A DNA stretch of 64,000 nucleotides, from the NCBI RefSeq assembly GCF_029626235.1, contig NZ_JARUBO010000005.1:496001-560000 (forward strand). Reading direction: 5' to 3'. Below the pieces are notes generated by a model. It saw only the letters and a list, made by a program, of their open reading frames with translations. It ran no database searches and had not been told where the DNA came from. Of this stretch, positions 5,121-20,653 are shown in pieces. Each line of letters begins with the position of its first letter. Position 1 is the stretch's first letter. The translations under genes were made by a program, and so were the position numbers. Source of the DNA: Micromonospora sp. WMMD1120 (GTDB lineage: Bacteria; Actinomycetota; Actinomycetes; Mycobacteriales; Micromonosporaceae).

Positions 5121-5171
5121 AGGAGGGGCCCCTCGGCAACCACTCTAGGCGCTGCCGAGGGGGCCTCTCCT
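5121..5171 (-). terminator. Strong hairpin between the two secreted-protein genes
   Basis: The arms AGGAGGGGCCCCTCGGCA (5121-5138) and TGCCGAGGGGGCCTCTCCT (5153-5171) enclose a 14-nt loop. It begins immediately after the stop of the 5176-8037 gene and ends only 22 nt before the start of the ThuA gene. There is no T-run, so it may terminate, attenuate or stabilise transcripts between the two genes rather than be a canonical terminator. Confidence 0.65.
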
Positions 5172-5175
5172 CAGC

Positions 5176-8037
5176 TCAGGGCAGGGTCCACTTCTGGTTT
5201 GCGGCACCGCTGACGCAGGTCCACAGGTGGACCACGGTGCTGTCGGCGGAGTTGTTGCCGGAGACGTCCAGGCACTTGCCGGACGCCGCGCTGCGCAGCG
5301 TGCCGTCGGCCTGGGCCGTCCAGTTCTGCGCGGCCGTACCGTTGCAGGTCCAGAGCTGGATCTTGGTGCCGTCCGCGGTCCCGGCGCCGGAGACGTCCAG
5401 GCACTTGCCCAACGATTTGATCGTGGAGTTGGGGGTGACCGCCCAGGTCTGCGCCGCGCTGCCGTTGCAGGTGTAGATCTGGATCTGCGTGCCGTCGGCG
5501 GTGGCCGCGTTGCGGACGTCCAGGCACTTGCCGCCCAGACCCTTGATCGGGCCGGTCCCGCCACCACCGGTGGAGGTGCCGGTGACGAAGGTGAAGGCGT
5601 CCAGGTCGAAGAGCGCCCCGGTGCCCGAGCCGGCGAACGTCAGGTAGAGCGTGGTGGTGCCGGTCGGCGGGTTGCTGATCGTCCCGGTGACGGTGGTGAA
5701 GGTTTCCCAGCCGCCGGTCACCGGGACCGGGGCCGAGCCGAGCACCGTGCCGGTGGCCGAGCCGGCCCGGACCTGGAGGGTGCCGCCGGCGCCCGCCGAG
5801 GAGACCCGGGCGGTGAACGACGTCACGTTGCCCAACCGGTACGGCTGGAACGCGATCCAGTCACCGTTGTTGATGTCGCCGACGGTCTTGCCACCCTCGG
5901 CCGGGGTCTTGCTGAACACGTTGATCCCGGACGAGGTGCCGTAGAACTCGGCCTGCCGGTGGCGCGGCGGCAGCGTGTGCTGGGTGTGCGTGGTCAGCCC
6001 GCCGGCGTCGGTGTACTCCGCGTCGAAGATCGCGAAGATGTTCGCCGCGTCGTCGTGCTCGCCGTCGACCGGGATGGTGATCGAGCCCGAGCAGCCGGTC
6101 TTCGAGGTGATCTGGTGTCCGTGCTGGTCGTGGCCGAGCACGTAGGTCATCTTGACCTTCGTGCAGTCGATGGTGCCGTCCTCCGGGTCGGTCACCGTGA
6201 TGCTGTACGGCACCGTGTCGCCGAAGCCGAAGAGCTGGCCGTTGCCCGGGTTGTTGATCGTGACCGTGGGCGCGGTGTTGCCGACGTTGATCCGTACGCT
6301 GCTGCTGCCGGTGGCCCCCTGCGGGTCGCGGACCGTCAGCGTGGCCGTGTAGGTGCCGTTCGAGGTGTACGTCTTCGTCGGGTTGGCCGCCGTCGAGGTG
6401 GTCCCGTCGCCGAAGGCCCACGAGTAGGTCAGCGTGCCGCCCTCGGGGTCGGACGAGCCGGCCGAGGAGAAGGTGACCGCGAGCGGGGCCGCCCCCGAGG
6501 TGCGGTTGGCGCTGGCCACCGCGGTGGGCGCCCGGTTGCCGCCACCGACGTAGTCGAAGCGGTAGAGCGCCGAGTTGGCGTCACCGTTGAAGTAGCCGGT
6601 GCCGTAGTCGAGCACGTAGTAGGCGCCGTCCGGGCCGAACGCCGAGTCCATCACCTGCTTGCCGACCCAGGGGAAGGTGTCGATGGCGCCCCGGGAGCCG
6701 TCGGAGTTGACGTGGATCGGCTTGATCCAACCCCGGCCGAACTCGGTGGCGAAGAACTGGCCGTCGAAGGACTGCGGGAACTTCGTGGTGGAGGTCGACG
6801 AGGCGTTGTACCGGTAGACCGGGCCGCCCATCGGCGACTCGGAGCCGCCGCCGAACTCGGTCGGGGTGCCGGCGTCACCGGCGTACCGGATCCAGGCCGG
6901 TTGGGCCGGCGGCAGGGTGGTCCGGCCGGTGTTGCGGAACGAGTTGTTGGTCGGCCCGCCGGTGCAGTTGTACTTCGCCCCGCTGGTGTTGGTGGCGAAG
7001 TCCCACTCGTTGTACGTCTCGGTGGTGGTGTTGGTGCCGGTGCAGTACGGCCAGCCGTAGTTGCCCGGCGCGGCGACCCTGTTGAACTCCACCTGGCCGG
7101 ACGGCCCGCGGGTGGAGCTGGTGGAGCCGGCGTCCGGCCCGTAGTCGCCGACGTAGACGACACCGGTGGCCTTGTCCACGCTGATCCGGAACGGGTTGCG
7201 GAAGCCCATCGCGTAGATCTCCGGGCGCGTCTGGGCGGTGCCGGGGGCGAACAGGTTGCCGGACGGGATGGAGTACGTCCCGTTCGCGTTCACCTTGATC
7301 CGCAGGATCTTGCCGCGCAGGTCGTTGGTGTTGCCGGCGCTGCGCTGGGCGTCGTACGCCGGGTTGCGGTTGGTCCGCTCGTCCAGCGGCGAGTAGCCGG
7401 CGGACTCGAACGGGTTGGTGTCGTCACCGGTCGACAGGTAGAGGTTGCCGGCGGCGTCGAAGTCGATGTCCCCACCGACGTGGCAGCACATGCCCCGGTT
7501 GGCCGGGACGTCGAGCACGTCGACCTTGCTGGACTGGTTGAGCGTGAAGTCGGAGTTCAGCGTGAACCGGGAGAGGCGGTTCACCCCGTTCCAGGCGGAG
7601 AAGTCGGTGCCGGTGGCGGGCGCGTCGCCGCTGGGTGTGGAGAGCGGCGGGGCGTAGTAGAGGTAGATCTGCCGGTTGCTGGCGAAGCCGGGGTCGACCC
7701 CGACGCCCTGCAACCCCTCCTCGTCGTGCGTGTAGACCGGGAGGGTGCCGATCACCGAGGTGGTGCCGCCCGCGTCGGTACGACGCAGGGTGCCGTTGCG
7801 GGCGGTGTGCAGGACCGACCGGTCCGGCAGCACCGCCAACGACATCGGCTCACCCATGTCGTTGACGCCGCGGGCCAGCTCGACCTGCTGGAAGTCGCTG
7901 GCGACGATGGTGTGCGCCTGCGCGGGCGCCGAGCCGGCGGCCAGCGCGACGCTGCCGGCGGTGACCGCCAGCAGCAGCGCTGATCCGGCTGAGGACCACC
8001 TTCGGGATCGACGCGTGGGAGCGTCCTTCATGGACAT
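5176..8037 (-). CDS. Secreted sugar dehydrogenase-PKD-CBM6-ricin B protein
   Basis: 953 residues. A signal peptide (to about 41, PAQA-H) is followed by a glucose/sorbosone dehydrogenase beta-propeller (about 50-490; GLQGVGVDPGFASNRQIYLYY, NRGMCCHVGGDIDFD, KILRIKVNANG, GFRNPFRISVD). Then come a PKD domain (about 495-585; SSDPEGGTLTYSWAFGDG), an unassigned beta-rich region with DHQHGHQ (about 590-690), a CBM6-like domain (about 690-815) and a C-terminal ricin B lectin (about 828-953). Sugar dehydrogenases of this class may use PQQ; no PQQ synthesis gene is in the window. The last about 125 residues closely match the neighbouring ThuA protein, suggesting module duplication. Two in-frame ATGs (8037 and 8031) are possible; AGGAAGGGG lies upstream. 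Confidence 0.88.
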   Translation of the reverse strand: MSMKDAPTRRSRRWSSAGSALLLAVTAGSVALAAGSAPAQAHTIVASDFQQVELARGVNDMGEPMSLAVLPDRSVLHTARNGTLRRTDAGGTTSVIGTLPVYTHDEEGLQGVGVDPGFASNRQIYLYYAPPLSTPSGDAPATGTDFSAWNGVNRLSRFTLNSDFTLNQSSKVDVLDVPANRGMCCHVGGDIDFDAAGNLYLSTGDDTNPFESAGYSPLDERTNRNPAYDAQRSAGNTNDLRGKILRIKVNANGTYSIPSGNLFAPGTAQTRPEIYAMGFRNPFRISVDKATGVVYVGDYGPDAGSTSSTRGPSGQVEFNRVAAPGNYGWPYCTGTNTTTETYNEWDFATNTSGAKYNCTGGPTNNSFRNTGRTTLPPAQPAWIRYAGDAGTPTEFGGGSESPMGGPVYRYNASSTSTTKFPQSFDGQFFATEFGRGWIKPIHVNSDGSRGAIDTFPWVGKQVMDSAFGPDGAYYVLDYGTGYFNGDANSALYRFDYVGGGNRAPTAVASANRTSGAAPLAVTFSSAGSSDPEGGTLTYSWAFGDGTTSTAANPTKTYTSNGTYTATLTVRDPQGATGSSSVRINVGNTAPTVTINNPGNGQLFGFGDTVPYSITVTDPEDGTIDCTKVKMTYVLGHDQHGHQITSKTGCSGSITIPVDGEHDDAANIFAIFDAEYTDAGGLTTHTQHTLPPRHRQAEFYGTSSGINVFSKTPAEGGKTVGDINNGDWIAFQPYRLGNVTSFTARVSSAGAGGTLQVRAGSATGTVLGSAPVPVTGGWETFTTVTGTISNPPTGTTTLYLTFAGSGTGALFDLDAFTFVTGTSTGGGGTGPIKGLGGKCLDVRNAATADGTQIQIYTCNGSAAQTWAVTPNSTIKSLGKCLDVSGAGTADGTKIQLWTCNGTAAQNWTAQADGTLRSAASGKCLDVSGNNSADSTVVHLWTCVSGAANQKWTLP

Positions 8038-8258: not shown

Positions 8259-9326
8259 TCAGGCGCGGCGGTCGATGGCCTGTTCGGCCAGCGCGACAAG
8301 CGCCGCGCGCGCCTCGTCGGCCACCGCCGCGTTCTTCAGCGCGGCGAGCGCGGCCTCGGTCCGGACCCTGATCATCTGTTCGATCCGCTCCCGGGCGCCG
8401 GTCGCGTCGATGATCCCGCGCAGTTCCGCGGCGCCCTCGGCGTCCAACGCCGGGTTGCCGAACAGCTCCCGCAGCCGGATCGTCTGCGGCCGGTCGGCGG
8501 CGCTGCGGGCCAGCGCCATCATCACCGTGGGCTTGCCCTCCCGCAGGTCGTCGAGGATCGACTTGCCGGTGACCGCCGGGTCGCCGAAGACGCCCAGCAC
8601 GTCGTCGCGGAGCTGGAACGCGTCGCCCAGCGGGTCACCGAACTCGCCGAGCGCGTCTATCAGCTCCGGCTCCGCGCCGGCCAGGGCCGCGCCGATCTGC
8701 AACGGTCGGGTGACCGTGTACCGGGCCGCCTTCATCCGGATCACGGTGAGCGCGCTCGCCACCGAACCGTCGCCCACACCGGAGACCAGGTCCAGGTACT
8801 CCCCCGCGATCACCTCGGTGCGCATCAGGGCGAACACGCTGTATCCCCGGTGCACCTCCTCGGTGCTCAGCCCGCACTCGTGGAACATCTGGTCCGACCA
8901 GGCGGCGCAGAGGTCGCCGCAGAGCAGCGCGGTGTTGCGGCCGTACGCCTCGGGGTCGCCCCGCCAGGACGAGCGGGTGTGCAGGTCGGCGAAGAGCCGG
9001 TGCACCGACGGCTCGCCCCGGCGGCGGTCGCTGCCGTCCAGGATGTCGTCGTGGATCAGCGCGAACGCGTGGAACAGCTCCAGCGCCGCGGCGGCCACCA
9101 CGATCGGGGTGCCGTCGGCCGCTCCCGCGCCGCGCCAGCCCCAGTAGCAGAACAGCGGCCGGATCCGCTTGCCACCGGCCAGCACGAACCGCTGCAACGC
9201 GGTGAACACCCCGCGCGGCGCGCCGTCCGGCCAGTCCGGGCCCTGCCGGTCGAGGAACCCGGCCAGCTCGGCGTCGAAGCGCGCCCGCAGCTCACTCGCG
9301 TCGGTCGCCGCGACGGTGAGCGTCAT
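8259..9326 (-). CDS. Polyprenyl diphosphate synthase (geranylgeranyl type)
   Basis: 355 residues of the trans-isoprenyl diphosphate synthase fold, which condenses IPP onto allylic diphosphates. The substrate-binding motif GGKRIRP is at 51-57, the first aspartate-rich motif DDILD at 93-97 and the second DDVLG at 241-245. The DDxxG form of the second motif is common in bacterial geranylgeranyl-type enzymes. Chain length cannot be fixed by eye. Its ATG overlaps the stop of the upstream phosphodiesterase gene (ATGA at 9323-9326), so it is translationally coupled as the last gene of the ebo-like operon. There it could supply the prenyl donor for the UbiA-type enzyme at 14476-15426. Confidence 0.92.
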   Translation of the reverse strand: MTLTVAATDASELRARFDAELAGFLDRQGPDWPDGAPRGVFTALQRFVLAGGKRIRPLFCYWGWRGAGAADGTPIVVAAAALELFHAFALIHDDILDGSDRRRGEPSVHRLFADLHTRSSWRGDPEAYGRNTALLCGDLCAAWSDQMFHECGLSTEEVHRGYSVFALMRTEVIAGEYLDLVSGVGDGSVASALTVIRMKAARYTVTRPLQIGAALAGAEPELIDALGEFGDPLGDAFQLRDDVLGVFGDPAVTGKSILDDLREGKPTVMMALARSAADRPQTIRLRELFGNPALDAEGAAELRGIIDATGARERIEQMIRVRTEAALAALKNAAVADEARAALVALAEQAIDRRA

Positions 9327-10738
9327 CCCCGCTCCCCCGAGCCGTCCGCACCACCGGCGCCCAGGCCGGCCAGCTCCAGCAGCAGGGCCTTGACCTCGGT
9401 TGCCGCGATCCGGTCCCGGGCCGCCGTCGGGTCGGAGCAGAGCAGCACCGGTGCGTCCGCCGGGTCGTCCGGCAGCCGGCCGTGCGAGCCCCGCACCGCC
9501 CGCGCGCCGGCGTCCAGGCCGACAGCGCTCATCAGGTACCGCATGCCCAGCTTCTTGCGGGCCAGCGCCACACCGGCACGAGTCTTCGCCGCACCGGGGT
9601 TGGCCGGATCGAAGAACAGCTCGGCGGGGTCGTAACCCGGCTTCCGATGAATCTCCACGAGTCGGGCGAAGTCCGGTGCCCGGTCGTCGTCCAGCCAGTA
9701 GTAGTAGGTGAACCAGGCGTCCGGCTCGGCCACCAGCACCAGTTCACCGGCGCGCGGGTGGTCCAATCCGTGCGCGGCCTTGCCGTCGGCGTCGAGCACC
9801 TCGGCCACCCCGGGCAGGCCGGCGCAGAGCTTCGCCACCGCCGGCACGTCGGCCGGGTCCCTGACGTAGACGTGCGCGACCTGGTGGTCGGCGACGGCGA
9901 ACGCCTTCGACGTCCACGGGTCGAGGTATTCCATACCGGCCTGGGTGTGCACCCGCAACAGCCCCTCGGAGCGCAGCAACCGGTTGACGTCCACCGGCCG
10001 GGACACGTCGGTGATGCCGTACTCGGAGAGCACCACCACAGTGGCGTCCCGGGCCCGGGCGGCGTCCAGCAGCGGACCGAGCACCGCGTCCAGCTCGGCC
10101 GCCGCGGCTGCGGCCTGGGGTGACGACGGGCCGAACCGTTGCAGGTCGTAGTCGAGGTGCGGGACGTAGACAAGGGTCAGGTCCGGTGACACGTCCGCCA
10201 GTAGCTGCTCGGCCGCCTGACAGATCCACTTCGACGACGGCAGACCGGCGGTCGGCCCCCAGTAGGTGAACAGCGGGAACGTGCCGAGCCGCCCGGTCAG
10301 GGCGTCGTGCAGCTCCGGCGGGTCGGTGTAGCAGTCGGGCTCCTTGCGGCCGTCGGCGTAGTACACCGGGCGGGGGGTGACGGTCCAGTTGACGTCCGCG
10401 CCCATCGCGTACCACCAGCAGACGTTCGCCACCGTGTAGCCCGGCTCGGCCCGGCGGGCCGCGTGCCAGAGCTTGTCCCCGCCGACGAGCGCGTTGTGCT
10501 GCCGCCACAGCAGCACCTCGCCCAACTCCCGGAAATACCACCCGTTACCGACGATGCCGTGCCCGCTGGGCGGCTCACCGGTGAGGAAGGTGGACTGCAC
10601 CGAGCAGGTCACCGCCGGCAGCACCGTGCCCAGCTCGGCCCGGAAACCGCCGTCGGCGACGCCGCGCAGTCGGGGCATGTGCTTCAGCAGTCGCGGGGTC
10701 AACCCCACCACGTCGAGGACCACCAGTCGCCGGCTCAT
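9323..10738 (-). CDS. eboF: Alkaline phosphatase-family phosphodiesterase/pyrophosphatase (EboF-like)
   Basis: 471 residues of the type I phosphodiesterase/nucleotide pyrophosphatase superfamily. The N-terminal metal site is DVVG (Asp8) with a nucleophile region VTCSVQSTFLTGEPPSGHGIVGNGWY. Further metal-ligand motifs are YVPHLDYDLQRFG, VVLSEYGITDV, and GSHGRLP near the C-terminus. No signal peptide is seen, so it is probably cytoplasmic. In ebo clusters the phosphatase-like member is called EboF; the assignment here rests on family plus operon position. It overlaps EboE by ATGA (10735-10738) and the prenyl synthetase downstream. A plausible role is hydrolysis of a phosphate or diphosphate ester intermediate. 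Confidence 0.85.
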   Translation of the reverse strand: MSRRLVVLDVVGLTPRLLKHMPRLRGVADGGFRAELGTVLPAVTCSVQSTFLTGEPPSGHGIVGNGWYFRELGEVLLWRQHNALVGGDKLWHAARRAEPGYTVANVCWWYAMGADVNWTVTPRPVYYADGRKEPDCYTDPPELHDALTGRLGTFPLFTYWGPTAGLPSSKWICQAAEQLLADVSPDLTLVYVPHLDYDLQRFGPSSPQAAAAAAELDAVLGPLLDAARARDATVVVLSEYGITDVSRPVDVNRLLRSEGLLRVHTQAGMEYLDPWTSKAFAVADHQVAHVYVRDPADVPAVAKLCAGLPGVAEVLDADGKAAHGLDHPRAGELVLVAEPDAWFTYYYWLDDDRAPDFARLVEIHRKPGYDPAELFFDPANPGAAKTRAGVALARKKLGMRYLMSAVGLDAGARAVRGSHGRLPDDPADAPVLLCSDPTAARDRIAATEVKALLLELAGLGAGGADGSGERG

Positions 10739-11934
10739 CGCGTCACCCCCATGCTCACGGTTCGGTCAACGGTCAGCCCGAGGCCGACCAGTTCGTCGCG
10801 CGCGAAGGCCAGCTCGGCGGCGATGCCGGCGGCCAGCTCCGCGTCGGTGCCGGGCCGCCGTGCGGCCGGCAGCACCCCCCAGGTGTACGTCTCGACGTCG
10901 AGGTGGTCGCAGCCCGCGTCCGGCCCGTCGAAGAGCGCTCTCAGAGCCGCGCGGAGCACCGGTAGTGTCGAGCCGAGCGGTTCCTCGGGTGGCGCGTGCA
11001 GCGGCACGTGGTAGTGCACCCGCCACGGTCCGGGCAGGGCCCGGTCCAGCGCCTCGTCCAGGTCGTCGGCGGCGTACGCCGGGTCGGCCGGGTCACCCGG
11101 ACCGGCACAGCCGGCGCCCCGGGTCTGGTGCAGGAAGCGCGGCTCCACCCAACGGCGCAACGCCTCCGCCCCGCCCGCCGGGTCGGCGGCCTCCACCGCG
11201 GCGGAGACCTGCACCTTCACCACCGGCAGCCCGGCCGCCCGCAGTCGGCCCAGCGCCTCGGCCGGGTCCTCCCACGCGCACGCCAGGTGGGCCAGGTCGA
11301 GACAGATCCCCAGCCGGTCGGTGTCCATCCCGGACAGCAACGCGGCCGCCTGGCTGCTGCTCTCCACCACACACCCGGGCTCCGGCTCGAAGGCCACCCG
11401 CACCTCGCGGCCGGTGTCCCGCCGCACCCCGGCGAGACCGGCGGCGAGCTGGTCCAGCCGGCGGCGGGCCGCGTCCGCCATGTCGGCGTCCCACGGCTGC
11501 CGCCAGGCCAGCGGCAGGGTGGAGATGGAGCCCCGGGCGGCGTCGTCGGGCAGCAGGTCGGCGAGCACCCGGGCCAGATCCAGGGTGTACGTCAGGCGCT
11601 GCTCGGTGGTCCAGTCCGGGTGGTACACGTCCTGCTTGACCACCGGGGCCTGGAAGGCCGCGTACGGGAAGCCGTTGAGGGTGACCACCTCCAGACCGCG
11701 CGCGTCCAGCTCGGCGCGCAGCCGGCGGCGCAGCGTCGCGTCGGCGGCCAGCTCGGCGGCGACCGGGGCGGCCAGCCACAGCCCCAGCCCGAGCAGGTCG
11801 CTGCCGAGCGCCGCGCGGACCGGCACGGCGTAGGTGTCCAGTTGCCGCAGGATGCCGGCGAGGTCCTCGGCCGGGTGCACGTTCGTGCAGTAGCCGAGGT
11901 GGACGGTCTCGCCGCCGGCATGCCGCAGCCGCAT
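10735..11934 (-). CDS. eboE: Metabolite traffic protein EboE
   Basis: 399 residues with a TIM-barrel sugar-isomerase-like fold and motifs I associate with EboE: HLGYCTNVHPAEDLAGI near the N-terminus, TLNGFPYAAFQ, VKQDVYHPDW, VAFEPEPGCV, ICLDLAHLACAW and VHYHVPLH. It starts at 11934, sharing one base with the EboB stop (TGATG). EboE belongs to the ebo cluster, which in cyanobacteria is needed for export or processing of a scytonemin precursor and in Pseudomonas for a nematode repellent. The biochemical reaction is not established. The EPEPGC and DLAH motifs match metal-ligand positions of the isomerase fold, so it may act on a phospho-sugar or cyclitol. Confidence 0.88.
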   Translation of the reverse strand: MRLRHAGGETVHLGYCTNVHPAEDLAGILRQLDTYAVPVRAALGSDLLGLGLWLAAPVAAELAADATLRRRLRAELDARGLEVVTLNGFPYAAFQAPVVKQDVYHPDWTTEQRLTYTLDLARVLADLLPDDAARGSISTLPLAWRQPWDADMADAARRRLDQLAAGLAGVRRDTGREVRVAFEPEPGCVVESSSQAAALLSGMDTDRLGICLDLAHLACAWEDPAEALGRLRAAGLPVVKVQVSAAVEAADPAGGAEALRRWVEPRFLHQTRGAGCAGPGDPADPAYAADDLDEALDRALPGPWRVHYHVPLHAPPEEPLGSTLPVLRAALRALFDGPDAGCDHLDVETYTWGVLPAARRPGTDAELAAGIAAELAFARDELVGLGLTVDRTVSMGVTR

Positions 11935-12791
11935 CAGCTACCGCCGCGCAGGATCGAGTTGCCGGTCTGCGGGTCCACCGCTGCGGGGTCCTCCAGGTCG
12001 CTGAGGTCGAGCCGCCCGGACTGCCCGTAGAACTCCACCGGGTTGCGCCACAGCACGGTGTCGACGTCGTCGTTACTGAAGCCGGCCGCCAGCATCGCCT
12101 CGCCGGTGGCCCGGGTCAGCAGCGGGTCCGAGCGCCCCCAGTCGGCCGCCGAGTTGACGAGCATCCGCTCGGTGCCGTACTCGCGCAGCAGCTCGACCAT
12201 CCGCTGCGGCGTCATCTTGGTGTCCGGGTAGATGGAGAAGCCCATCCAGCAGCCGCTGTCCTTGACGAGCTTGACGGTCACCTCGTTGAGGTGGTCGACC
12301 ACCACGCGGCCCGCGTCGATGCCGGACTCGGCGACCACGGCGAGGGTGCGCTCGCAGCCGCGCGCCTTGTCCCGGTGCGGGGTGTGCACCAGCGCCGGCA
12401 GGTCGTACGCCACGGCGAGGGCGAGCTGCGCGGCGAACGCCTCGTCCTCCTCCGGCGTCATCGAGTCGTACCCGATCTCGCCGACCGCCACGACCGCGTC
12501 CTTGTCCAGGTAGCGGGGCAGCAGGTCCAGCACCGGCCGGCAGCGCGGGTCGTTGGCCTCCTTCGGGTTGAGCGCGATGGTGGCGAAGTGGCGCACCCCG
12601 AACTGCCCGGCCCGGAACGGCTCCCAGCCGATCAGCGAGTCGAAGTAGTCGACGAACGACGCGGCGCTGGTGCGCGGCTGCCCCAACCAGAACGCCGGCT
12701 CCACCAGCGCGCGTACGCCGGCGGCGGCCATCCGTTCGTAGTCGTCGGTGGTGCGCGAGGTCATGTGGATGTGGGGGTCGAAGATGCGCAT
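11934..12791 (-). CDS. eboB: TatD-family metal-dependent hydrolase (EboB-like)
   Basis: 285 residues of an amidohydrolase/TatD barrel. The N-terminal HxH motif is in DPHIHM (His7, His9). Later ligands are GEIGYDS, VHTPHRDKARG, VVDHLNE and NSAADWGRSD, giving the usual two-metal site. The start at 12791 directly abuts the EboA stop (12792-12794). TatD members are often nucleases, but operon-embedded members such as EboB probably act on a small metabolite. It is co-transcribed and coupled with the neighbouring ebo genes. Confidence 0.87.
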   Translation of the reverse strand: MRIFDPHIHMTSRTTDDYERMAAAGVRALVEPAFWLGQPRTSAASFVDYFDSLIGWEPFRAGQFGVRHFATIALNPKEANDPRCRPVLDLLPRYLDKDAVVAVGEIGYDSMTPEEDEAFAAQLALAVAYDLPALVHTPHRDKARGCERTLAVVAESGIDAGRVVVDHLNEVTVKLVKDSGCWMGFSIYPDTKMTPQRMVELLREYGTERMLVNSAADWGRSDPLLTRATGEAMLAAGFSNDDVDTVLWRNPVEFYGQSGRLDLSDLEDPAAVDPQTGNSILRGGS

Positions 12792-13400
12792 TCACGCCTC
12801 CCGGGGCGATGCGGCGGTGAGCCGGTGGAGCAGGGCGGTGGCGTCGGCGGGCAGGTCCCGGCCGGCGGCGTGTCGTTCGGCGGCCAACGCGGCGAGCATG
12901 GTGGCCAGTTCCCCGTCGGCCCGGGTGTCCAGGTCGGCCACCGCGGCGAGCGGGACGCCGCTGAACACGCACTTGAGCACCGCCTGCCGCCAGGCGGCCG
13001 GGTCGAGGTGTTCCGCGTAGGGGCCGAGCGCGGCCGCGACCAGCCGGGTGTCGTTGGTCCGGATCGCGTCGTGCAGCAGCGGCACCGCCTCGGCGCCGAT
13101 CGGCAGCAGCGGCAGGGCCCGCAGCACGGCGCGCTTCTCGGCCGCGTCCCCGTGCTGGTAGAGGTTCTGGGCGTACTCGGCGTGGTCGCCGGGCAGGCTG
13201 GTCAGCAGCAGCACCCGGGCGGCGTCGTCGGCGGTCCAGCCGGGGGCGTCGGGCAGCGCGGCCCGACCGCACTTCCGGCCGGCGGCGGGAAAGAGCCGGG
13301 TGATCGCCGTGGGCTCGGTCGCGACCCGGCGCACTGCCGTGTCCAGCCAGTCGGGATCGGGTACGCCTCGCAGCGCGGCCCGTAGTGAATCCGGTGTCAT
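12792..13400 (-). CDS. eboA: EboA domain-containing protein
   Basis: 202 residues, mostly alpha-helical. It has the EboA signature layout: WLDTAVRRVATEP, TAITRLFPAAGRKCGRA, ARVLLLTSLP, YQHGDAAEKRAVLRALPLLP, and LKCVFSGVPLAAVADLD. The family has no known catalytic activity and is diagnostic of ebo clusters. The ATG at 13400 follows GGGGAGGAG with a 5-nt spacer, so longer upstream starts were rejected. It sits 62 bp after the stop of the isomerase gene and abuts eboB. Confidence 0.88.
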   Translation of the reverse strand: MTPDSLRAALRGVPDPDWLDTAVRRVATEPTAITRLFPAAGRKCGRAALPDAPGWTADDAARVLLLTSLPGDHAEYAQNLYQHGDAAEKRAVLRALPLLPIGAEAVPLLHDAIRTNDTRLVAAALGPYAEHLDPAAWRQAVLKCVFSGVPLAAVADLDTRADGELATMLAALAAERHAAGRDLPADATALLHRLTAASPREA

Positions 13401-13447
13401 CCCGTCTCCTCCCCTTGTGCGTGCTGCTCGCGGTGGCCAGCCACCCG

Positions 13448-13596
13448 CCCTTTGCTCTGCACCTACATGTGCGCCGGGGTCCCGTCGGCGGCCGGCGCGC
13501 CGGCGGGCGGCGCGCCGGCGGGCGGCGTGTGGGCCGCGGACGCATCGGCGGCCGGCGCATCGGCGGCCGGCGCATCGGTGGGTGCAGAGCAAAGGG
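13448..13596. repeat. 149-bp palindrome-bounded element forming the 3' end of a gene
   Basis: Perfect 16-bp inverted ends, CCCTTTGCTCTGCACC (13448-13463) and GGTGCAGAGCAAAGGG (13581-13596), bound a core of short tandem repeats (GCCGGCGCATCGGCG and GCGCGCCGGCGGGCG). The isomerase stop codon (13463-13465) lies at the left end. The element therefore supplies its last about 40 residues, an Ala/Pro-rich tail. Confidence 0.75.
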
Positions 13597-14479
13597 TGTG
13601 GTCACTGCGGCCGGCGGTGGCTGCGGCGGCACGCAGGAACTCGATCGACCGGGCGGCCACGGCCGGCGCGGCGTGCGAGTCGCGGGGCAGCTCCACCGCG
13701 ACCAGCCCCCGGTAGCCGGCGGTCGCCAGGGCGGCCAGCACCGGCGGGAAGTCGATCTCGCCGACGCCGAACTCCAGGTGCTCGTGCACGCCCCGGCGCA
13801 TGTCGTCGATCTGGACGTTGACCAGGTGCTCGGCAACCTCGGCGACGCACTGCGGCACCGGCCACGGCTCCAGGCAGCGGCAGTGGCCGATGTCGAGGGT
13901 GATGCCGAAGCGCGCCGGAGCGTCCAGGGCGGCGTACAGCCGACGCCAGTCCGCGATGTCCTGCACGAGCATGCCCGGCTCCGGTTCGAAGCCGACAGTG
14001 ACGCCGGCGGCGTCGGCCGCGTCGACGACGGTGGCGCAGCCGGCCACCAGCCGGTCCCAGGCACACTGCGGGGACACCGTCTCGGGTCGGACGCCGGCCC
14101 AGAAGGAGACCGCCTCCGCGCCCAGTTCGGCGCCGATGCGCACGGCCCGGCGCAGGAACTCGATCCGCCGGGTCGGGTCGTCGTGCAGCAGCGTCGGCGC
14201 GTGCTTCTGCCACGGGTCGAGCAGGTAGCGGGCCCCGGTCTCGATCACCACGGCGAGGCCCAGCTCGCTCAGCCGGCGACCCACAGCGGCGACCCGGCGG
14301 GTCAGCCCGGGGGCGAACGGGTCCAGGTGGTCGTGGTCCAGGGTGAGCGCCACCCCGTCGTAGCCGAGGTCGGCCAGGACGGCGAGCGCGTCGTCGAGAC
14401 GGTGGTTGGCGAAGCCGTTGGTGCCGTACCCGAGGCGCAGCGTCGCGGCGTCGGCGGCGCGGGGCGCGGGGACGCTCAT
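13463..14479 (-). CDS. Sugar phosphate isomerase/epimerase in the ebo-like operon
   Basis: 338 residues. The first about 295 form a xylose-isomerase-like TIM barrel with LRLGYGTNGFANHRLDDAL at the N-terminus, VALTLDHDHLDPF, VGFEPEPGML, GITLDIGHCRCLEPWP, VQIDDM and VAVELPRDSH. The Glu, Asp and His residues of EPEPG, DIGH and ELPRDSH are the likely metal ligands. The remaining tail is repetitive (APAADAPAAD-like) and is encoded by the palindrome-bounded element at 13448-13596, so it is probably dispensable. The start at 14479 overlaps the prenyltransferase stop (ATGA). It is distinct from EboE and acts in the same operon; the substrate is unknown, perhaps a phosphorylated sugar or cyclitol. Confidence 0.85.
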   Translation of the reverse strand: MSVPAPRAADAATLRLGYGTNGFANHRLDDALAVLADLGYDGVALTLDHDHLDPFAPGLTRRVAAVGRRLSELGLAVVIETGARYLLDPWQKHAPTLLHDDPTRRIEFLRRAVRIGAELGAEAVSFWAGVRPETVSPQCAWDRLVAGCATVVDAADAAGVTVGFEPEPGMLVQDIADWRRLYAALDAPARFGITLDIGHCRCLEPWPVPQCVAEVAEHLVNVQIDDMRRGVHEHLEFGVGEIDFPPVLAALATAGYRGLVAVELPRDSHAAPAVAARSIEFLRAAAATAGRSDHTLCSAPTDAPAADAPAADASAAHTPPAGAPPAGAPAADGTPAHM

Positions 14480-15426
14480 GTCGGGGAGACTTTCCGGGCC
14501 AGCCGCCGGCCCAGCGGCGCGGCGGCCGCGACGGCCAACCCGAGCAGACCGGCGCCGCCGCGTGCGGTGAGCGCTCCCTGGAGGGCGGGCAGCCCGGTGA
14601 TGCCGGCGCCGACGGCGGCGCGGACCCGACCGGCGGACGGGTCCCGGACCACCTCCGCCTGCGCCGCGCCGTAGCGGGCGGCGTACCAACCGGCCAGCAC
14701 GGCCGGCAGCACCGTCGCGATCCCGGCGGACCTCGTCGCGTGCCCACCGACCCCGTCGACGGCCCCGGCCCGGTCGGTGCCGCCGGCACGCTCGGCCGCC
14801 ACGCGCCGGGCGCGCGGCACGGCGACGGCGGCGCTGGCGGCGACCACCACGGTGCCGGCGAGGGTGCGCTTCGGCAGGGTGGTGTCGGCCCCACTGACCT
14901 CGCGCCGGGACAGCGCGGTGACCGTCCAGGTGTGCGCGGCGACGGTGGCCGCCGCCGGCAACGCCCTGGCCCACCGGCCACCGGACGCGCCGAGCAGCAC
15001 GTCCAGCCCTCGACAGGCCGCCATCACGGCCGGGCCGGCAGCGGTGTTCTTGGCCAGCAGGTCGTACCCCCAGATGCTGGCGGCCAGCGGCACGGCGAGC
15101 GCGGCGGCGCGGCGACCGCCCACGGCGGTGGCCAGGCCCACGCCGGCGGCCGTGAGCCCCGCCGCCAGGCCGACGGCGGCGGCCGGGCTGATCCGACCGC
15201 TGGGGATCGGCCGCTCCGGCCGCTCCACGGCGTCCAGCCGCCGGTCGGACCAGTCGTTGGCGGCCATGCCGGCCCAGTAGAGCAGCACCGACGCGCCGGC
15301 CAGGGCGGGGGTACGGGGACCGAGCGCACCGGCAGCCGCCGCCCCGGCGATCACGTCGCCGGGGACGGAGAGCGCGGCCGGAGCCCGGACCAGCTCGGCG
15401 ACGTCAGCCAGCGTGGCCATCGGCAC
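14476..15426 (-). CDS. eboC: UbiA-type prenyltransferase (EboC / SCO3242 family)
   Basis: 316 residues, very hydrophobic, an integral membrane UbiA-superfamily enzyme. The prenyl-diphosphate/Mg motif NDWSDRRLD (NDxxDxxxD) lies about residues 60-68, followed by ERPERPIPSGRISP. The second motif YDLLAKN is near 125. Alternating Ala/Val/Leu-rich helices account for the rest. This family transfers prenyl groups to aromatic or polar acceptors. Here it is encoded between an inositol-phosphate synthase and a sugar isomerase, so a cyclitol or sugar acceptor is possible. It overlaps the upstream gene by 23 bp (15404-15426) and the downstream gene by ATGA. Starts at 15426 or 15420 are both possible. Confidence 0.88.
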   Translation of the reverse strand: MPMATLADVAELVRAPAALSVPGDVIAGAAAAGALGPRTPALAGASVLLYWAGMAANDWSDRRLDAVERPERPIPSGRISPAAAVGLAAGLTAAGVGLATAVGGRRAAALAVPLAASIWGYDLLAKNTAAGPAVMAACRGLDVLLGASGGRWARALPAAATVAAHTWTVTALSRREVSGADTTLPKRTLAGTVVVAASAAVAVPRARRVAAERAGGTDRAGAVDGVGGHATRSAGIATVLPAVLAGWYAARYGAAQAEVVRDPSAGRVRAAVGAGITGLPALQGALTARGGAGLLGLAVAAAAPLGRRLARKVSPT

Positions 15427-16570
15427 CGTCCCGGCCCTCGTGCAGTTGCCGGGCGAACGCGGTCAGCCGCGCCCACTGCTCGCCCAGCGAGTGGGTGGGC
15501 GAGCCGAGCGGGTCCTTGAAGAAGAAGCCGAGGTCGGCGAGCGGCCCCACCCGCCCGGCCGCGTGCGCGGCGGCGGTGAGCCGGGCCAGGTCGAGCACCA
15601 GCGGCGCGGCCAGCGCGGAGTCGCAGCCGTGCCAGGTGAACTCCATCCGCATGCCGGTGCCGAGGAAGCCGGAGAAGGTGATCAAATCCCAGGCGGTCTT
15701 GAAGTCGCCCAGCTCCTCGACGAACTCGATGCGGGTGCCGCCCTGCGGGACGTAGCCCAGCGTCTCGCCGAGCACCCGCTGCTTGCTCTGCACCTTCGCC
15801 GCGTTGGCGGCCGGGTCGGCGAGCGTGGCGCCGTCGCCACCACCGAGCAGGTTGACCCCGGACCAGGAGCCCACGGTCAGGTTGCGCATCGCGAACATCG
15901 GCGCGAGCACCGACTTGACCAGGGTCTCCCCGGTCTTGCCGTCGTGCCCGGCGTACGGCAGGCGGGCCTCCTCGGCCAGCGCGGCCAGCGCCGGCAGCCG
16001 CAGCCCGGTGGACGGGGTGAAGTCGACGTACGGGCAGCCGGCCAGCAGAGCCGCATAGGCGTAGAGGGAGCTGACCGGCAGCACCTCGTCCGGCCCGTCG
16101 AGGGCGGCGCGCAGCGCGGCCGGGTCGGCGTGCCCGGGGTGCGGTAGCGGGGCGGGCTCGGTGGCGGAGACGTTCACCACCACCACCCGGTCCAGCCCGT
16201 GCCGCTCGCGGAAGCTGGTGAGGTCGCGGACCACGGCGGCGGCCCGGTCGGCCTGGGTGACGCCGGTCGGCGCGGGCCGCAGCTCCTGGTCGACGGTGAC
16301 CAGCTCGTCCCGGAGCGCGGCGACCAGTCGCCAGGGGATGACACCCGCGTCGGCAAGCGCCTCGGCGCGCTTGCACAGCGGGGTGGTGGCCAGGTCGTGC
16401 CCGCCGAAGACCAGGTCGGCGAAGGCCGGTAGCGCGGGGCCGCGCAGCTCGGGCAGCTCGGTGACGCAGCCGGTGGGCCCGGCCAGGCCGGCTCGCAACG
16501 CGAGCCCCCCGACGATGCTGGTGGTCGCGACGGAACCGCGCGCCCCTACCAGCCAGACACCTGTTCGCAT
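15404..16570 (-). CDS. Inositol-3-phosphate synthase family protein
   Basis: 388 residues of the NAD-dependent family that cyclises glucose 6-phosphate to inositol phosphate. The NAD-binding motif GARGSVATTSIVGG is at about 8-21. Conserved family blocks are VSSLYAYAALLAGCPYVDFTPS, GHDGKTGETLVKSVLAPMFAMRNL, SKQRVLGETLGY, DFKTAWDLITFSGFLG and DLGFFFKDPLGSPTHS. The ATG at 16570 has AAGGAG 4 nt upstream. It is the first gene of the ebo-like operon. Because it is linked to secondary-metabolite-like genes it may be a pathway-specific copy rather than the housekeeping enzyme; whether another copy exists elsewhere cannot be seen. Confidence 0.9.
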   Translation of the reverse strand: MRTGVWLVGARGSVATTSIVGGLALRAGLAGPTGCVTELPELRGPALPAFADLVFGGHDLATTPLCKRAEALADAGVIPWRLVAALRDELVTVDQELRPAPTGVTQADRAAAVVRDLTSFRERHGLDRVVVVNVSATEPAPLPHPGHADPAALRAALDGPDEVLPVSSLYAYAALLAGCPYVDFTPSTGLRLPALAALAEEARLPYAGHDGKTGETLVKSVLAPMFAMRNLTVGSWSGVNLLGGGDGATLADPAANAAKVQSKQRVLGETLGYVPQGGTRIEFVEELGDFKTAWDLITFSGFLGTGMRMEFTWHGCDSALAAPLVLDLARLTAAAHAAGRVGPLADLGFFFKDPLGSPTHSLGEQWARLTAFARQLHEGRDGADGHAG

Positions 16571-17147: not shown

Positions 17148-18356
17148 TCAGGCGACCGCCGCGCTCAGCGCCGGTTCCACCTCGGCCCAGGAAGAGCCGA
17201 GCTCCGCCGAGCGGGCCACCGCGTCCAGCACCAGCTGGACCTGCAACGCGTCGGCGAACGACGGAGTCGGGTCGACGCCGGTGGCGACCGCCTCGATGAA
17301 GTCGCGCATCTCGTGCGTGAACGAGTGCTCGTAGCCGATGATGTGGCCCGGCGGCCACCACGCCGACATGTACGGGTGCTCGCCCTCGGTCACCAGGATG
17401 CGACTGAAGCCCTGCTCGGCCGCCGGTCGGGTGGCGTCGTAGAACTCCAGCTCGTTGAGGCGCTCGAGGTCGAAGACCACGCTGCCCAGCGAGCCGTTGA
17501 TCTCGACACGCAGGCCGTTCTTCCGGCCGGTGGCGAACCGGCTCGCCTCGTACGTGGCCAGCGCGCCACCGTCCAGCCGGGCCACGAAGACCGCGGCGTC
17601 GTCGACGGTGACCGGCCCGGTGGGGGCGCTGCCGCCGTCCACCGTCGCCGCCAGACCGCTCGACTCGGCCGGCAACGGCCGCTCCTTGACGAAGGTCTCG
17701 GTGATCGCGCTGACCCCGCTGATCCGCTGGCCGGTGACGTACTGGGTCAGATCGATGATGTGGGCACCGATGTCACCGAGCGCGCCGGAGCCCGCCCTGT
17801 CCTTCTGGAGGCGCCAGACCAGCGGGAACTGCGGGTCCACGATCCAATCCTGGAGGTACGTCGCACGGACGTGTCGAATCACCCCGAGTCGTCCGTCGGC
17901 CACCAACTGGCGCATCATCGTGACCGCGGGGACCCGGCGGTAGTTGAACCCGCACATCGACCGGACTCCGGCGGCCCGGGCGGCGTCCGCCGCGGCGGTC
18001 ATCGCCCGAGCCTCCTCCACAGTGTTTGCCAGCGGCTTCTCACACAGGACGTGCTTGCCGGCGGCCAACGCGGCGAGGGCGATCTCGGCGTGACTGTCGC
18101 CCGGGGTGCAGATGTCGACAACGTCGATGTCGTCCCGGTTGATCAGGTCACGCCAGTCCGTGGTGTACGCGTCCCAGCCGAGCGTGTCGGCGGCCTCGGC
18201 CACCTTCGCGGTGTCTCGGCCGCAGATCAGCGCCATCCGGGCCCGCGCCGGCACGTCGAACACGCGGTTCACGGTGCGCCACGCCTGCGAGTGCGCGGCG
18301 CCCATGAACGCGTAGCCGACCATGCCGATCCGCAGTTCTTTGTCTGTCGTGGACAA
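17148..18356 (-). CDS. Gfo/Idh/MocA family oxidoreductase
   Basis: 402 residues. The N-terminal Rossmann NAD(P) domain reads RIGMVGYAFMGAAHSQAW (GxxGxxx variant), followed by DDIDVVDICTPGDSHAEIALAALAAGKHVLCEKPLA, where EKP carries the conserved lysine. The C-terminal alpha/beta domain includes GALGDIGAHIIDLTQYVTG, with the conserved GxxxDxGxHxxD pattern. These enzymes oxidise sugars, inositols or glycosides at a ring carbon. It is the last gene of the ROK-ABC transporter operon, 21 bp after the binding-protein gene, so it probably performs the first catabolic step on the imported sugar. The substrate is unknown. Confidence 0.92.
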   Translation of the reverse strand: MSTTDKELRIGMVGYAFMGAAHSQAWRTVNRVFDVPARARMALICGRDTAKVAEAADTLGWDAYTTDWRDLINRDDIDVVDICTPGDSHAEIALAALAAGKHVLCEKPLANTVEEARAMTAAADAARAAGVRSMCGFNYRRVPAVTMMRQLVADGRLGVIRHVRATYLQDWIVDPQFPLVWRLQKDRAGSGALGDIGAHIIDLTQYVTGQRISGVSAITETFVKERPLPAESSGLAATVDGGSAPTGPVTVDDAAVFVARLDGGALATYEASRFATGRKNGLRVEINGSLGSVVFDLERLNELEFYDATRPAAEQGFSRILVTEGEHPYMSAWWPPGHIIGYEHSFTHEMRDFIEAVATGVDPTPSFADALQVQLVLDAVARSAELGSSWAEVEPALSAAVA

Positions 18357-18377
18357 GGTGGGTCTCCCCCCGGTATG

Positions 18378-19430
18378 TCAGAACCCGAGCTTGTCGTAGC
18401 TGCTCGCGTTCTCCTTGGTGATCGTCTCCGAGGCCAGGGTCACTTCCTTGGGCACCTGGAGCTCCGTCAGGTCGCCCAGGCCCCGACCCTGCGCGATGAG
18501 CCGCGCGAGCGAGATCGCCGAGGAGGCCATCGACGGGTTGTAGGTGACCGTCGCCTTGAGCACGCTGTTGTCTGCCTTGATCGCGTCGATCGCGAGCTTG
18601 GAGCCCGCGCCGCCGACCATGAAGAACTCCGACCGGTTGGCCTGCTTGATGGCGGCCAGCACGCCGATGCCCTGGTCGTCGTCGTGGTTCCAGATGGCGT
18701 CGATCTTCGGCAGCGCCTGGAGGAGCTGCGCCGCCTCGCGCTGGCCGCTGTCCGAGGTGAACTCGGCCGAACGCCGGTTGGCCACCTTGAACCCGTACGT
18801 CGCCAGGGCGGCGTTGAAGCCAGTGGTGCGCTCGACGGTCAGCGGGATCTCCAGACCGGCGATCTCACCGATGACCGGGTTGGTGACGCCCTTGTCCTTG
18901 AGCATCTTGCCGATGAAGTGGCCGGCGGCGACGCCCATGCCGTAGTTGTCACCCTTGATCACCAGCCGAGAGGCCAGCGCGTCCGGGAAGACCCGGTCGA
19001 GGTTGACGATCGGGATGCCCGCCTGCATCGCCTGGAGGGCAACCGCGTTGACCTCCTTGCCGTCGTGCGGCAGCACGACGATGATGTCCGGCTTCTGGGC
19101 GATCAGCGTGCCGAGCGTGGAGCGCTGGGCCTCGGAGCTCGAGCCACCGTCGACCTCCTTGAACTCCACGTCCGAGTAGGCGGCGGCCTGCGCCTTGGCG
19201 TTGGCGTGGATGGCGCCCATCCAGCCGTGGTCGGCGGCCGGGGCGGAGAAGCCGATGACGACCTTCTTGCCCGGGGCGTTGTTGCCCTCGCCGCCGCCCG
19301 CGGCCTTGGTCTGGGTGCTGGCGGCCGGAGTCTCGTTGCTGGTGCAGGCGGTCAGCAGGGTGGCGGCGCCAACTGCGGCTCCACCGAAGAGCAACCGGCG
19401 GCGCGACACGTCGCGACTGTGCTGGGTCAT
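18378..19430 (-). CDS. Sugar ABC transporter substrate-binding lipoprotein (RbsB type)
   Basis: 350 residues. The N-terminus has a twin-arginine motif (SRRRLLF, 9-15) followed by a hydrophobic stretch and a lipobox ending at Cys29 (LLTAC), so it is probably a Tat-exported lipoprotein. The mature part is a periplasmic-binding-protein-1 type sugar binder: VVIGFSAPAADHGWMGAIHANAKAQA, PDIIVVLPHDGKEVNAVALQAMQAGIPIVNLDR, and IDAIWNHDDDQGIGVLAAI. It lies between the permease gene and the Gfo/Idh gene. The ligand is likely a monosaccharide or cyclitol but is not determined. Confidence 0.92.
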   Translation of the reverse strand: MTQHSRDVSRRRLLFGGAAVGAATLLTACTSNETPAASTQTKAAGGGEGNNAPGKKVVIGFSAPAADHGWMGAIHANAKAQAAAYSDVEFKEVDGGSSSEAQRSTLGTLIAQKPDIIVVLPHDGKEVNAVALQAMQAGIPIVNLDRVFPDALASRLVIKGDNYGMGVAAGHFIGKMLKDKGVTNPVIGEIAGLEIPLTVERTTGFNAALATYGFKVANRRSAEFTSDSGQREAAQLLQALPKIDAIWNHDDDQGIGVLAAIKQANRSEFFMVGGAGSKLAIDAIKADNSVLKATVTYNPSMASSAISLARLIAQGRGLGDLTELQVPKEVTLASETITKENASSYDKLGF

Positions 19431-19528
19431 GAACGACCTCCTGGGAGCGGTATCTGTCTGAATGAGGGTGTGCGGGGCCCTGCCCACGTCGAAAGTCTCG
19501 ACGTGGCCAGGGACATCGGTGCGGTGCG

Positions 19529-20653
19529 TCAGGCGGTGGTGACCCTGTTCCGCGCGAGGAGCCGAGTGACGGACTTGTACTGGAACTGCTGGATCAGGAC
19601 GGCGGCGACGATGATGCCGCCCTTGACCATGTTCTGCGCCTCGATGGAGAGGCCGTTGATGGCGAAGAGGTTCGTGATCGTGGCGAAGATGATGACGCCG
19701 AGCAGCGAGCCGACGATCGTGCCCCGACCACCGCTGAGCAGCGTCCCGCCGATGATCGCGGCGGCGATCGCGTCCAACTCGTACAGGTTGGCCATCGCCG
19801 CCTGGGCCGAGGTGGCCTGCGAGGTGAGCATGATGGCCGCGATGCCGCAGCAGAGGCCGGAGAGCGCGTAGAGCAGCATGGTGTGCCGCTTGACATTGAT
19901 GCCGGCCAGCCGCGCCGCCTCCGGGTTGCCGCCGACGGCGATGGTGCGGCGGCCGAAGGTCGTCCGGTTGAGCATGATCCAGCCGGCCAGCACCACAGCG
20001 CCGAGGATGTAGACGAGGATCGGAATCCCCAGCACCTTGCGGGCCGCGATGTCGTTGATGAACGTGCTGGTGGAGACCTGGGTCTGCTTGTTCGAGATCG
20101 AGGCCGCGAGGCCGCGGGCGGCCACCAGCATCGCGAGCGTCGCGATGAACGGCACCAACCTGCCGTACGAGATGAGCACGCCGTTGACCAGGCCGACGCA
20201 GAGACCGACAGCGAGGGCGGTGAAGATCATGCCGCCGGCGCCGTAGCTCTGGGTGGCGACGGTGGTGCACCAGACGCCGGCCAGCGCGACGATCGCCCCG
20301 ACCGACAGGTCGATGCCGCCCCCGATGATCACGAAGGTCATCCCGACGGTGACCACGCCGACGACCGAGGCGAGTTGAAGGATGGCCAGGACGTTGTTCC
20401 AGACCCAGTTCGGGTCGCCGTACAGGTCGGGCTTGGTGATCGCGCCGACCACGACGAGCGCGGCGAGCACCCCGATCAGGCCGAGGTTTCGCTTCGCGCC
20501 GTCGCCGCCGTCGCCCCGCCACCAGGAGAGCCGGCCCGCGCCCGCCGCCTTGTCGCTGGCAGCCGCCGTCTCCGCCGGGTCCACCGGCGGTGACTGCGGC
20601 GGAAGCTGCGGGCGCTCCGGTGTCGCGGTGGGAGTGGGAGTCGCGTCGCTCAT
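19529..20653 (-). CDS. Sugar ABC transporter permease (RbsC type)
   Basis: 374 residues. A Pro-rich cytoplasmic N-terminus (about 1-50) precedes 8-10 hydrophobic segments. Family motifs are GMTFVIIGGGIDLSVGAIVALAG, VNGVLISYGRLVPFIATLAMLVAARGLA, FGRRTIAVGGNPEAARLAGI and AAIIGGTLLSGGRGTIVGSLLG. It forms the membrane channel for the operon's transporter. The start overlaps the ATPase stop (ATGA, 20650-20653). The 98 bp to the binding-protein gene hold no other gene. Confidence 0.93.
   Translation of the reverse strand: MSDATPTPTATPERPQLPPQSPPVDPAETAAASDKAAGAGRLSWWRGDGGDGAKRNLGLIGVLAALVVVGAITKPDLYGDPNWVWNNVLAILQLASVVGVVTVGMTFVIIGGGIDLSVGAIVALAGVWCTTVATQSYGAGGMIFTALAVGLCVGLVNGVLISYGRLVPFIATLAMLVAARGLAASISNKQTQVSTSTFINDIAARKVLGIPILVYILGAVVLAGWIMLNRTTFGRRTIAVGGNPEAARLAGINVKRHTMLLYALSGLCCGIAAIMLTSQATSAQAAMANLYELDAIAAAIIGGTLLSGGRGTIVGSLLGVIIFATITNLFAINGLSIEAQNMVKGGIIVAAVLIQQFQYKSVTRLLARNRVTTA

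Follow-up and report, generated by a model that had tools for sequence, protein, structure and literature searches.

The ebo operon (eboABCDEF) was named by Yurchenko et al. (2016), who proposed that EboD and EboC make an isoprenoid-cyclitol (PMC5133447). Deletion of eboA, eboB, eboC, eboE or eboF keeps the scytonemin monomer in the cytoplasm of Nostoc, short of the periplasm (Klicki et al., 2018; PMC6282210), and transposon mutants of Pseudomonas indicated that the operon is needed for nematode repellence (PMC6282210). A transferase and a myo-inositol phosphate synthase, SCO3242 and SCO3243 of Streptomyces coelicolor, have been listed with the CDA antibiotic cluster (PMC3610822). Here we describe an ebo operon of the soil bacterium Micromonospora sp. 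WMMD1120 that contains an inositol-3-phosphate synthase (MIPS) and a xylose-isomerase-like protein (Iso) instead of EboD. The operon occupies positions 8259-16570, minus strand, of the window, by which we mean the whole stretch of DNA analyzed (64,000 nucleotides; C5:496001-560000 of the 7.15-Mb genome), and consists of eight tightly arranged genes specifying, in order, MIPS, a UbiA transferase, Iso, EboA, EboB, EboE, EboF and a polyprenyl diphosphate synthase (PPS). We know of no identified product of any ebo operon.

We propose that MIPS together with Iso displaces the unrelated cyclase EboD as the supplier of a cyclitol to EboC, such that the product would be a prenylated cyclitol, derived from inositol in actinobacteria; we assign this reading a probability of roughly 0.55. 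MIPS belongs to a different protein family (PF07994/PF01658) from EboD and the other sugar phosphate cyclases (PF01761: AroB, EEVS and DOIS), with which it shares the NAD-dependent ring closure of a sugar phosphate. The operon shares with eboABCDEF a coupled set of genes for EboA, EboB, EboE, EboF and a UbiA transferase, but lacks EboD, has MIPS and Iso in its stead, carries an EboC of the SCO3242 subfamily and has gained PPS. With regard to its standing as an ebo operon, EboA, EboB, EboE and EboF lie in one predicted transcription unit, as judged by gene content and spacing. The transferase is a UbiA protein, yet it scores above the cut-off of the SCO3242 family model (NF045897, 371 bits, cut-off 260) and below that of the EboC equivalog (NF035940, 123 bits, cut-off 250), and the sugar phosphate cyclase EboD is missing from both operon and genome. 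Since a few EboD-less clusters are in print (PMC5133447), its absence makes the operon less canonical but leaves it within the group as a variant. The likeness to S. coelicolor lies in the transferase and MIPS, which there have neighboring gene numbers; SCO3242 is the namesake of NF045897, and the source does not describe the pair as ebo (PMC3610822). In the BE-40644 pathway (EEVS plus a UbiA farnesyl transferase) a cyclase-made cyclitol is likewise prenylated, presumably by the UbiA enzyme; the cyclase is a different one, and EboA, EboB, EboE and EboF go unmentioned for this pathway (PMC5133447).

MIPS and EboD across ebo loci

The initial annotation of the window saw no EboD in the operon and suggested that MIPS may replace it, a suggestion at odds with any separate eboD elsewhere in the genome. 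We looked for such a gene and found none: a PF01761 search of the genome returned two genes, neither of them EboD. The first is AroB (TIGR01357, 320 bits, cut-off 305). The second (C5:6263806-6264921) reaches 225 bits against the aroB model (cut-off 305), 226 bits against NF004852 (cut-off 333), a model that the EboDs of Deinococcus (585 bits), the actinobacterial locus L031 (564 bits) and Salipiger (530 bits) pass, and 215 bits against a custom EboD profile to which true EboDs score ~610 bits. Its best solved relative is 4p53 ("Cyclase", 351 bits), which we take to be the EEVS ValA. Because of these low scores and this closest relative we regard the gene as EEVS-like and not as EboD, and an EboD elsewhere in the genome was rejected. 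The EEVS-like gene perhaps belongs to a C7-cyclitol gene cluster.

We surveyed 154 loci, not counting the window itself: 19 neighborhoods from a draw of phylum genomes, 40 regions from the window's own family, 80 named loci from a genome-wide EboF scan, and 15 plasmid loci. The own-family regions were hand-picked across the genera of the family listing and include extra EboE copies of some genomes, and the plasmid loci were taken from 48 and 47 records with EboE. The 80 named loci scored best among 578 confirmed candidates when a Deinococcus EboF served as query and, owing to that query, lean to the EboD type. The ebo-bearing loci span 12 named phyla. Defining an ebo cluster as at least three of EboA, EboB, EboC, EboE and EboF, we found that 136 of the 154 loci qualify.

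MIPS occurs without EboD in 54 of the 136 clusters and EboD without MIPS in 79; no cluster has both, and three have neither (L028, whose genome has MIPS in its other copy, L029; L045, with a broken EboE; and L213, with EboB, EboE and EboF only). The mutual exclusion that had been envisaged is thus supported, and frequent co-occurrence of the two cyclases did not appear. The remaining 18 loci hold single genes or fragments; 14 of these have neither cyclase and four have EboD. Among the 19 phylum neighborhoods, 16 are of the MIPS type, one is of the EboD type (L031) and two have neither cyclase; among the named loci, with their EboD-biased query, 75 have EboD and none has MIPS. As MIPS and ebo genes recur together in 54 loci other than the window, their co-location is not a matter of chance, and the MIPS-type ebo cluster is a recurrent variant, general in actinobacteria, and no oddity. 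EboE was found in 19 of 396 evenly drawn phylum genomes, 143 of 200 family genomes and 87 of 325 class genomes, and at a threshold of 1e-80 none of the same 325 class genomes contained EboD. The EboD profile matched both of its positive controls, G381 and Azospirillum, and at 1e-60 its only matches in the 396 phylum genomes were G381 and the EEVS-like C5:6263806-6264921.

The MIPS of the operon (hereafter ebo-MIPS) exceeds the cut-offs of both Pfam domains of its family and retains the lysines of the active site along with the motif residues. Among solved structures it matches the mIPS 1u1i best (237 bits), which we take to be from Archaeoglobus. Residues K212, K263, K352, D317 and N240 are invariant in 54 of 54 aligned rows (window included, the L164 fragment left out), and K219 is Arg in 10 of the 54; K263 and K352 align with lysines of the best match that two variants with solved structures have as alanine. 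Among the 120 listed of 7810 matches in a protein search, the named ones are all Micromonospora or Verrucosispora, the closest named relatives among the matches listed being Micromonospora parva and M. noduli (94%).

Each of the 11 MIPS proteins that scored at least 326 bits in 246 phylum genomes is encoded ~5 kb or less from the EboE gene of the same genome, and the next best, the third MIPS of the source genome, reaches only 229 bits, which argues that ebo-MIPS is dedicated to the cluster. A tree of MIPS (like that of EboC, a careful search under LG+G4) sets actinobacterial ebo-MIPS apart by a branch (95/73), has non-ebo MIPS in a separate group (99/100), and leaves open whether the Gemmatimonadota MIPS and actinobacterial ebo-MIPS are sisters. 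The housekeeping, mycothiol-type Ino1 is a different gene of the genome (TIGR03450, 661 bits, cut-off 638). Given this separate Ino1, the third MIPS, the distinct tree group and the location beside EboE, we rejected the idea that ebo-MIPS is a shared housekeeping gene. Going by script-guessed starts, the MIPS gene overlaps that of EboC in 42 of 54 loci, and in two more the distance between them is at most 11 bp; in L049 the order is reversed, EboC preceding MIPS.

Because Iso accompanies MIPS in all 54 MIPS clusters, the replacing unit looks like MIPS plus Iso. EboC, EboE and EboF are also present in all 54; in this search EboB was not found in L164, nor EboA in L049 and L164. With Iso as the best query, nothing in the EboD-type clusters exceeded 48 bits (L081). 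The initial annotation had listed a sugar isomerase in the operon but missed its constant pairing with MIPS. In the EboD-type locus L048 (Ketogulonicigenium vulgare), two Gfo/Idh/MocA oxidoreductase genes precede EboD and another sugar phosphate isomerase gene follows EboB, which adds more enzymes of the cyclitol or sugar kind to that cluster.

Independent exchanges of the cyclase

A combined tree of EboB, EboF and EboE (54 rows; quick searches under LG+G4 for both the tree and the constrained test) requires two changes of cyclase type, forced by its starred branches: one in the actinobacterial clade and one in Gemmatirosa kalamazoonensis (L049, Gemmatimonadota), which is placed among EboD-type Thermomicrobiota, Deinococcus, Acidobacteriota and the actinobacterial L031. 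A single MIPS clade of Gemmatirosa and actinobacteria was rejected for EboB/E/F (approximately unbiased (AU) test, p=0.0001). The cyclase swap took at least two events. In L049, EboB-EboF-EboC-MIPS-Iso lie on one strand and EboE on the opposite strand, and no EboD was found on its 1.04-Mb record, to which the search was limited, the chromosome not being included. L031 groups with Deinococcus and Thermomicrobiales, as if its cluster had been acquired by transfer.

MIPS-type clusters carry their own EboC subfamily, as seen in model scores and tree, and the residues of the NDxxDxxxD motif are invariant in 131 of 131 EboC proteins of both cluster types. The EboC of Gemmatirosa scores 172 bits with the SCO3242 model and 135 bits with the EboC model, both below cut-off. 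In the best EboC tree it lies beside MIPS-type EboC, away from its EboB/E/F neighbors, and AU tests rejected grouping it with L031, L050 and L068 (p=0.0018) or with L072 and L121 (p=0.0021). The Gemmatirosa transferase may have travelled together with MIPS and Iso, as would be expected if the cyclase product is the acceptor for EboC. GGGP geranylgeranyltransferases prenylate a polyol hydroxyl, and models of these enzymes are among the next matches of both SCO3242-type EboC and a Deinococcus EboC. The Nostoc EboC has likewise been matched to GGGP geranylgeranyltransferase (PMC6282210).

Proposed pathway and alternative readings

If MIPS and Iso do stand in for EboD, MIPS would convert glucose-6-phosphate to inositol phosphate, as its conserved catalytic residues suggest. 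Iso and EboE, both epimerase/isomerase-like and both retaining their catalytic residues in alignments, would modify the cyclitol, and EboC, a membrane UbiA transferase, would attach it to a prenyl diphosphate, here supplied by the operon's PPS. A sequence search to E=1 gave EboE no solved relative; its modeled fold is a xylose-isomerase-like TIM barrel. EboA may keep the enzymes together. In 10 of 52 relatives a single reading frame covers both Iso and EboA, which agrees with the fusions in Actinobacteria noted by Yurchenko et al. (PMC5133447). EboB, which matches the Azospirillum ebo TatD gene at 56% and has 3guw (AF_1765, 101 bits) as a solved relative, would hydrolyze an intermediate; its likely metal-site residues are invariant in 131 of 131 proteins.

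The two-metal ligands of NPP phosphodiesterases are Asp, Thr, Asp, His, Asp-His and His. EboF has the NPP fold but, unlike Xac NPP, ENPP5/6 and autotaxin, lacks the complete two-metal site: in alignments, four of the seven ligand positions are replaced by invariant V, Q, E and Y in 137 of 137 copies, and Thr, one Asp and the last His are retained. These replacements make hydrolysis by EboF doubtful, so that of the two ester hydrolases initially suggested, EboB keeps its metal site and EboF is in question. EboF might bind or handle a phospho-lipid rather than act as a normal two-metal phosphodiesterase.

The notion that a prenyl synthetase of the operon's own feeds EboC as part of the system proved too simple, as PPS is a lineage add-on. 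It occurs in 22 of 33 own-family clusters, in none of 12 from Streptomycetaceae (named plasmids plus code f4, presumably Streptomyces) and, at other positions, in two of eight others; being lineage-restricted, it was rejected as a core ebo gene. All 22 own-family copies adjoin EboF on its strand, 13 of them with a 4-bp overlap. In such synthases, an aromatic residue five positions ahead of the Asp-rich motif goes with C15-C20 products, and the first Asp-rich motif of PPS, FALIHDDILD, suggests products of this length.

The prenyl-cyclitol idea is already published for EboD plus EboC, with the substrate of EboD a published guess (PMC5133447). In the literature searched, which was mostly without subscription papers, we found no paper linking MIPS to ebo genes, and the replacement by MIPS and Iso, the exclusion of EboD, the Gemmatirosa exchange and the altered EboF site all appear to be unreported. 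The replacement of EboD by MIPS offers a concrete and testable clue to the membrane-linked compound of a widespread gene set: as an unrelated enzyme whose usual reaction is known, MIPS lends independent support to the guess that a cyclitol is involved. Inositol phosphate would be a defined entry metabolite, traceable by labeling or feeding in the easily handled Streptomyces and Micromonospora. The findings also point to Iso as a needed partner and cast doubt on EboF as a hydrolase.

A number of points weigh against this reading. MIPS makes a phosphorylated polyol without a ketone and EboD presumably an unphosphorylated keto-cyclitol, so the two products differ. There are only two independent swaps, one of them from a single plasmid, with the host chromosome outside the search. 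Support for the position of Gemmatirosa EboC in the tree is not strong (75/57), and the preference of this transferase for the SCO3242 model says little alone, since an EboC from an EboD-type Deinococcus cluster matches the two transferase models almost equally well (100 and 96 bits). In the EboD-type loci L072 and L121, too, EboC conflicts with the EboB/E/F tree; EboC therefore moves for other reasons too, which weakens the co-travel argument. ThuA or GSDH genes lie beside 29 of 52 MIPS-type loci (of at least 15 kb) and three of 67 EboD-type loci; our model does not explain this link, and the queries, the window's own proteins at 200 bits, favor actinobacteria and near relatives. Clusters with neither cyclase exist (L028, L045 and L213), and in print a Leeuwenhoekiella cluster and planctomycetes are without EboD (PMC5133447). 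Finally, the EboC UbiA-297 farnesylated an aromatic acceptor, 8-hydroxyquinoline-2-carboxylic acid, in vitro (PMC9235831).

It is possible, though we consider it unlikely, that the two cluster types make different end products, ebo-MIPS producing another cyclitol and only EboB, EboE and EboF acting in common on a shared sugar-phosphate motif. The MIPS family does include a five-membered-cyclitol-phosphate synthase (6k96, 44 bits to ebo-MIPS), MIPS-type clusters have their own EboC subfamily and the added Iso, and Streptomyces L213 retains only EboB-E-F. However, three catalytic lysines of MIPS are invariant (the fourth is replaced by Arg in 10 of 54), a true mIPS is the closest solved relative of the enzyme, and equivalence accords better with the EboD/MIPS exclusion and with an exchange in Gemmatirosa within an EboD lineage.

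Quite unlikely, in our estimate, is a broader proposal: that the Ebo core makes membrane lipids of a new class, prenylated cyclitols in which an exchangeable cyclase determines the head group (of the inositol type in actinobacteria and Gemmatimonadota and of the C7-cyclitol type elsewhere) and which, moved across the membrane with the aid of DedA/VTT-type proteins, would ferry secondary metabolites out, EboF being an ex-phosphodiesterase turned head-group handler. We think it very unlikely that the Ebo proteins, in place of an end product, make a lipid or machine for trafficking by which other metabolites cross the membrane, with the cyclitol as part of the carrier, an idea compatible with our preferred reading and not exclusive of it. 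Retention of the scytonemin monomer in the Nostoc deletion strains (PMC6282210), the ScyE-family gene just upstream of MIPS in Streptomyces L046, the VTT/DedA-EboD fusion of Salipiger and the counting of SCO3242/SCO3243 with the CDA cluster (PMC3610822) all fit trafficking, yet the VTT fusion occurs in one locus and a VTT gene beside one other, and a second Salipiger EboD (442 aa) is unfused.

That MIPS merely tops up cellular inositol, or that the operon is part of a sugar-oxidation locus, such that MIPS would be uninformative on the Ebo product, has the neighboring ThuA/3-keto-disaccharide hydrolase, GSDH, GFO/IDH, sugar ABC transporter and ROK genes and the skewed ThuA/GSDH count on its side but is equally improbable, as the genome has a separate Ino1 and a third MIPS, ebo-MIPS has a tree group of its own, has ebo genes as neighbors in all 11 of 11 genomes and mostly overlaps EboC, and it is kept in 23 of 52 loci without ThuA/GSDH matches.

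Operon layout, flanking genes and further loci

The initial annotation placed eight minus-strand genes in the order given above, and positions, strand and order all match (Table 1). It described most of them as overlapping by 1-23 bp, which holds for five of the seven junctions: MIPS/EboC by 17 bp (23 bp with the GTG start), EboB/EboE by 1 bp, and EboC/Iso, EboE/EboF and EboF/PPS by 4 bp each. EboA and EboB abut, and a 62-bp gap separates Iso from EboA.

Table 1. Coordinates of the operon genes and of a repeat element within the window
Feature	Position	Strand	Details
Inositol-3-phosphate synthase (MIPS, ebo-MIPS)	15404..16570	-	388 aa, first gene; PF07994 165 bits and PF01658 97 bits, both above cut-off
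SCO3242-type UbiA prenyltransferase (EboC position)	14476..15420	-	NF045897 371 bits, PF01040; start ATG 15420 or GTG 15426
Iso, xylose-isomerase-like TIM barrel	13463..14479	-	338 aa; PF01261 130.6 bits
EboA	12792..13400	-	202 aa; NF035938 161.5 bits, above cut-off
EboB, TatD-like metal-dependent hydrolase (predicted)	11934..12791	-	285 aa; PF01026 50 bits, above cut-off
EboE, xylose-isomerase-like TIM barrel (predicted)	10735..11934	-	399 aa; NF035939 411 bits, above cut-off
EboF, NPP-fold protein, altered metal site	9323..10738	-	471 aa; PF01663 218 bits
All-trans polyprenyl diphosphate synthase (PPS)	8259..9326	-	355 aa; PF00348 156 bits
Short repeat element with inverted ends GGTGCAGAGCAAAGG	13449..13595	.	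between Iso and EboA, encodes the Iso C-terminal tail

The end of the repeat element, GGTGCAGAGCAAAGG, has 21 sites in the genome, nine inverted pairs and three singles, and none in a reversed control. The elements are about 70 to 150 bp long, and their exact ends were not found at the loci of 14 relatives. The element looks like a miniature inverted-repeat transposable element (MITE) or a repetitive extragenic palindromic (REP)-type element.

The operon is flanked by a sugar locus (window positions 994-8037 and 17148-23568). Its genes specify an IolE-like TIM barrel, ThuA/3-keto-disaccharide hydrolase and GSDH proteins with CBM6 and ricin-type lectin domains, a levoglucosan-dehydrogenase-like GFO/IDH protein, a permease, an ABC ATPase and a ROK regulator. 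ThuA lies within about 9 kb of EboE in 16 of 20 genomes that were chosen after ThuA matches had already been seen, and the ThuA/GSDH gene order differs between f4 and Micromonospora. At the same sugar locus, two own-family regions (L146 and L150) have only an EboE relative without several active-site residues and a third (L144) has an incomplete operon of EboC-Iso-EboE-PPS, as though decay were under way in some lineages.

On a plasmid of Salipiger sp. CCB-MM3 (L174:7073-8974), EboD follows a VTT/DedA (UptA-like) membrane domain in one fused protein (PF09335, 67.9 bits, cut-off 33.9), a fusion that may hint at lipid transport. A VTT-like gene adjoins the cluster in L121, and a second Salipiger plasmid specifies a shorter EboD (annotated length, 442 aa) that is not of the fused form. 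Directly upstream of the MIPS-type ebo operon on a plasmid of Streptomyces sp. NBC_00028 is a ScyD/ScyE-family gene (L046:3026-4225; NF033206, 255 bits, cut-off 80), and a multicopper oxidase gene lies downstream; scytonemin is described in print as restricted to cyanobacteria (PMC5133447). Other Streptomyces loci include an EboB-E-F set without transferase or cyclase (L213) and a lone EboE gene in an apparent type II polyketide cluster (L180, plasmid of Streptomyces sp. NBC_01244). In the control genome of Haloferax volcanii an EboE family match fell below cut-off, a possible archaeal relative of EboE. On a plasmid of Streptomyces sp. AMCC400023 (L051), the MIPS-type ebo operon adjoins genes for an FAD monooxygenase, a methyltransferase, an amidase and a glutamine-synthetase-family protein, an arrangement resembling a biosynthetic cluster.

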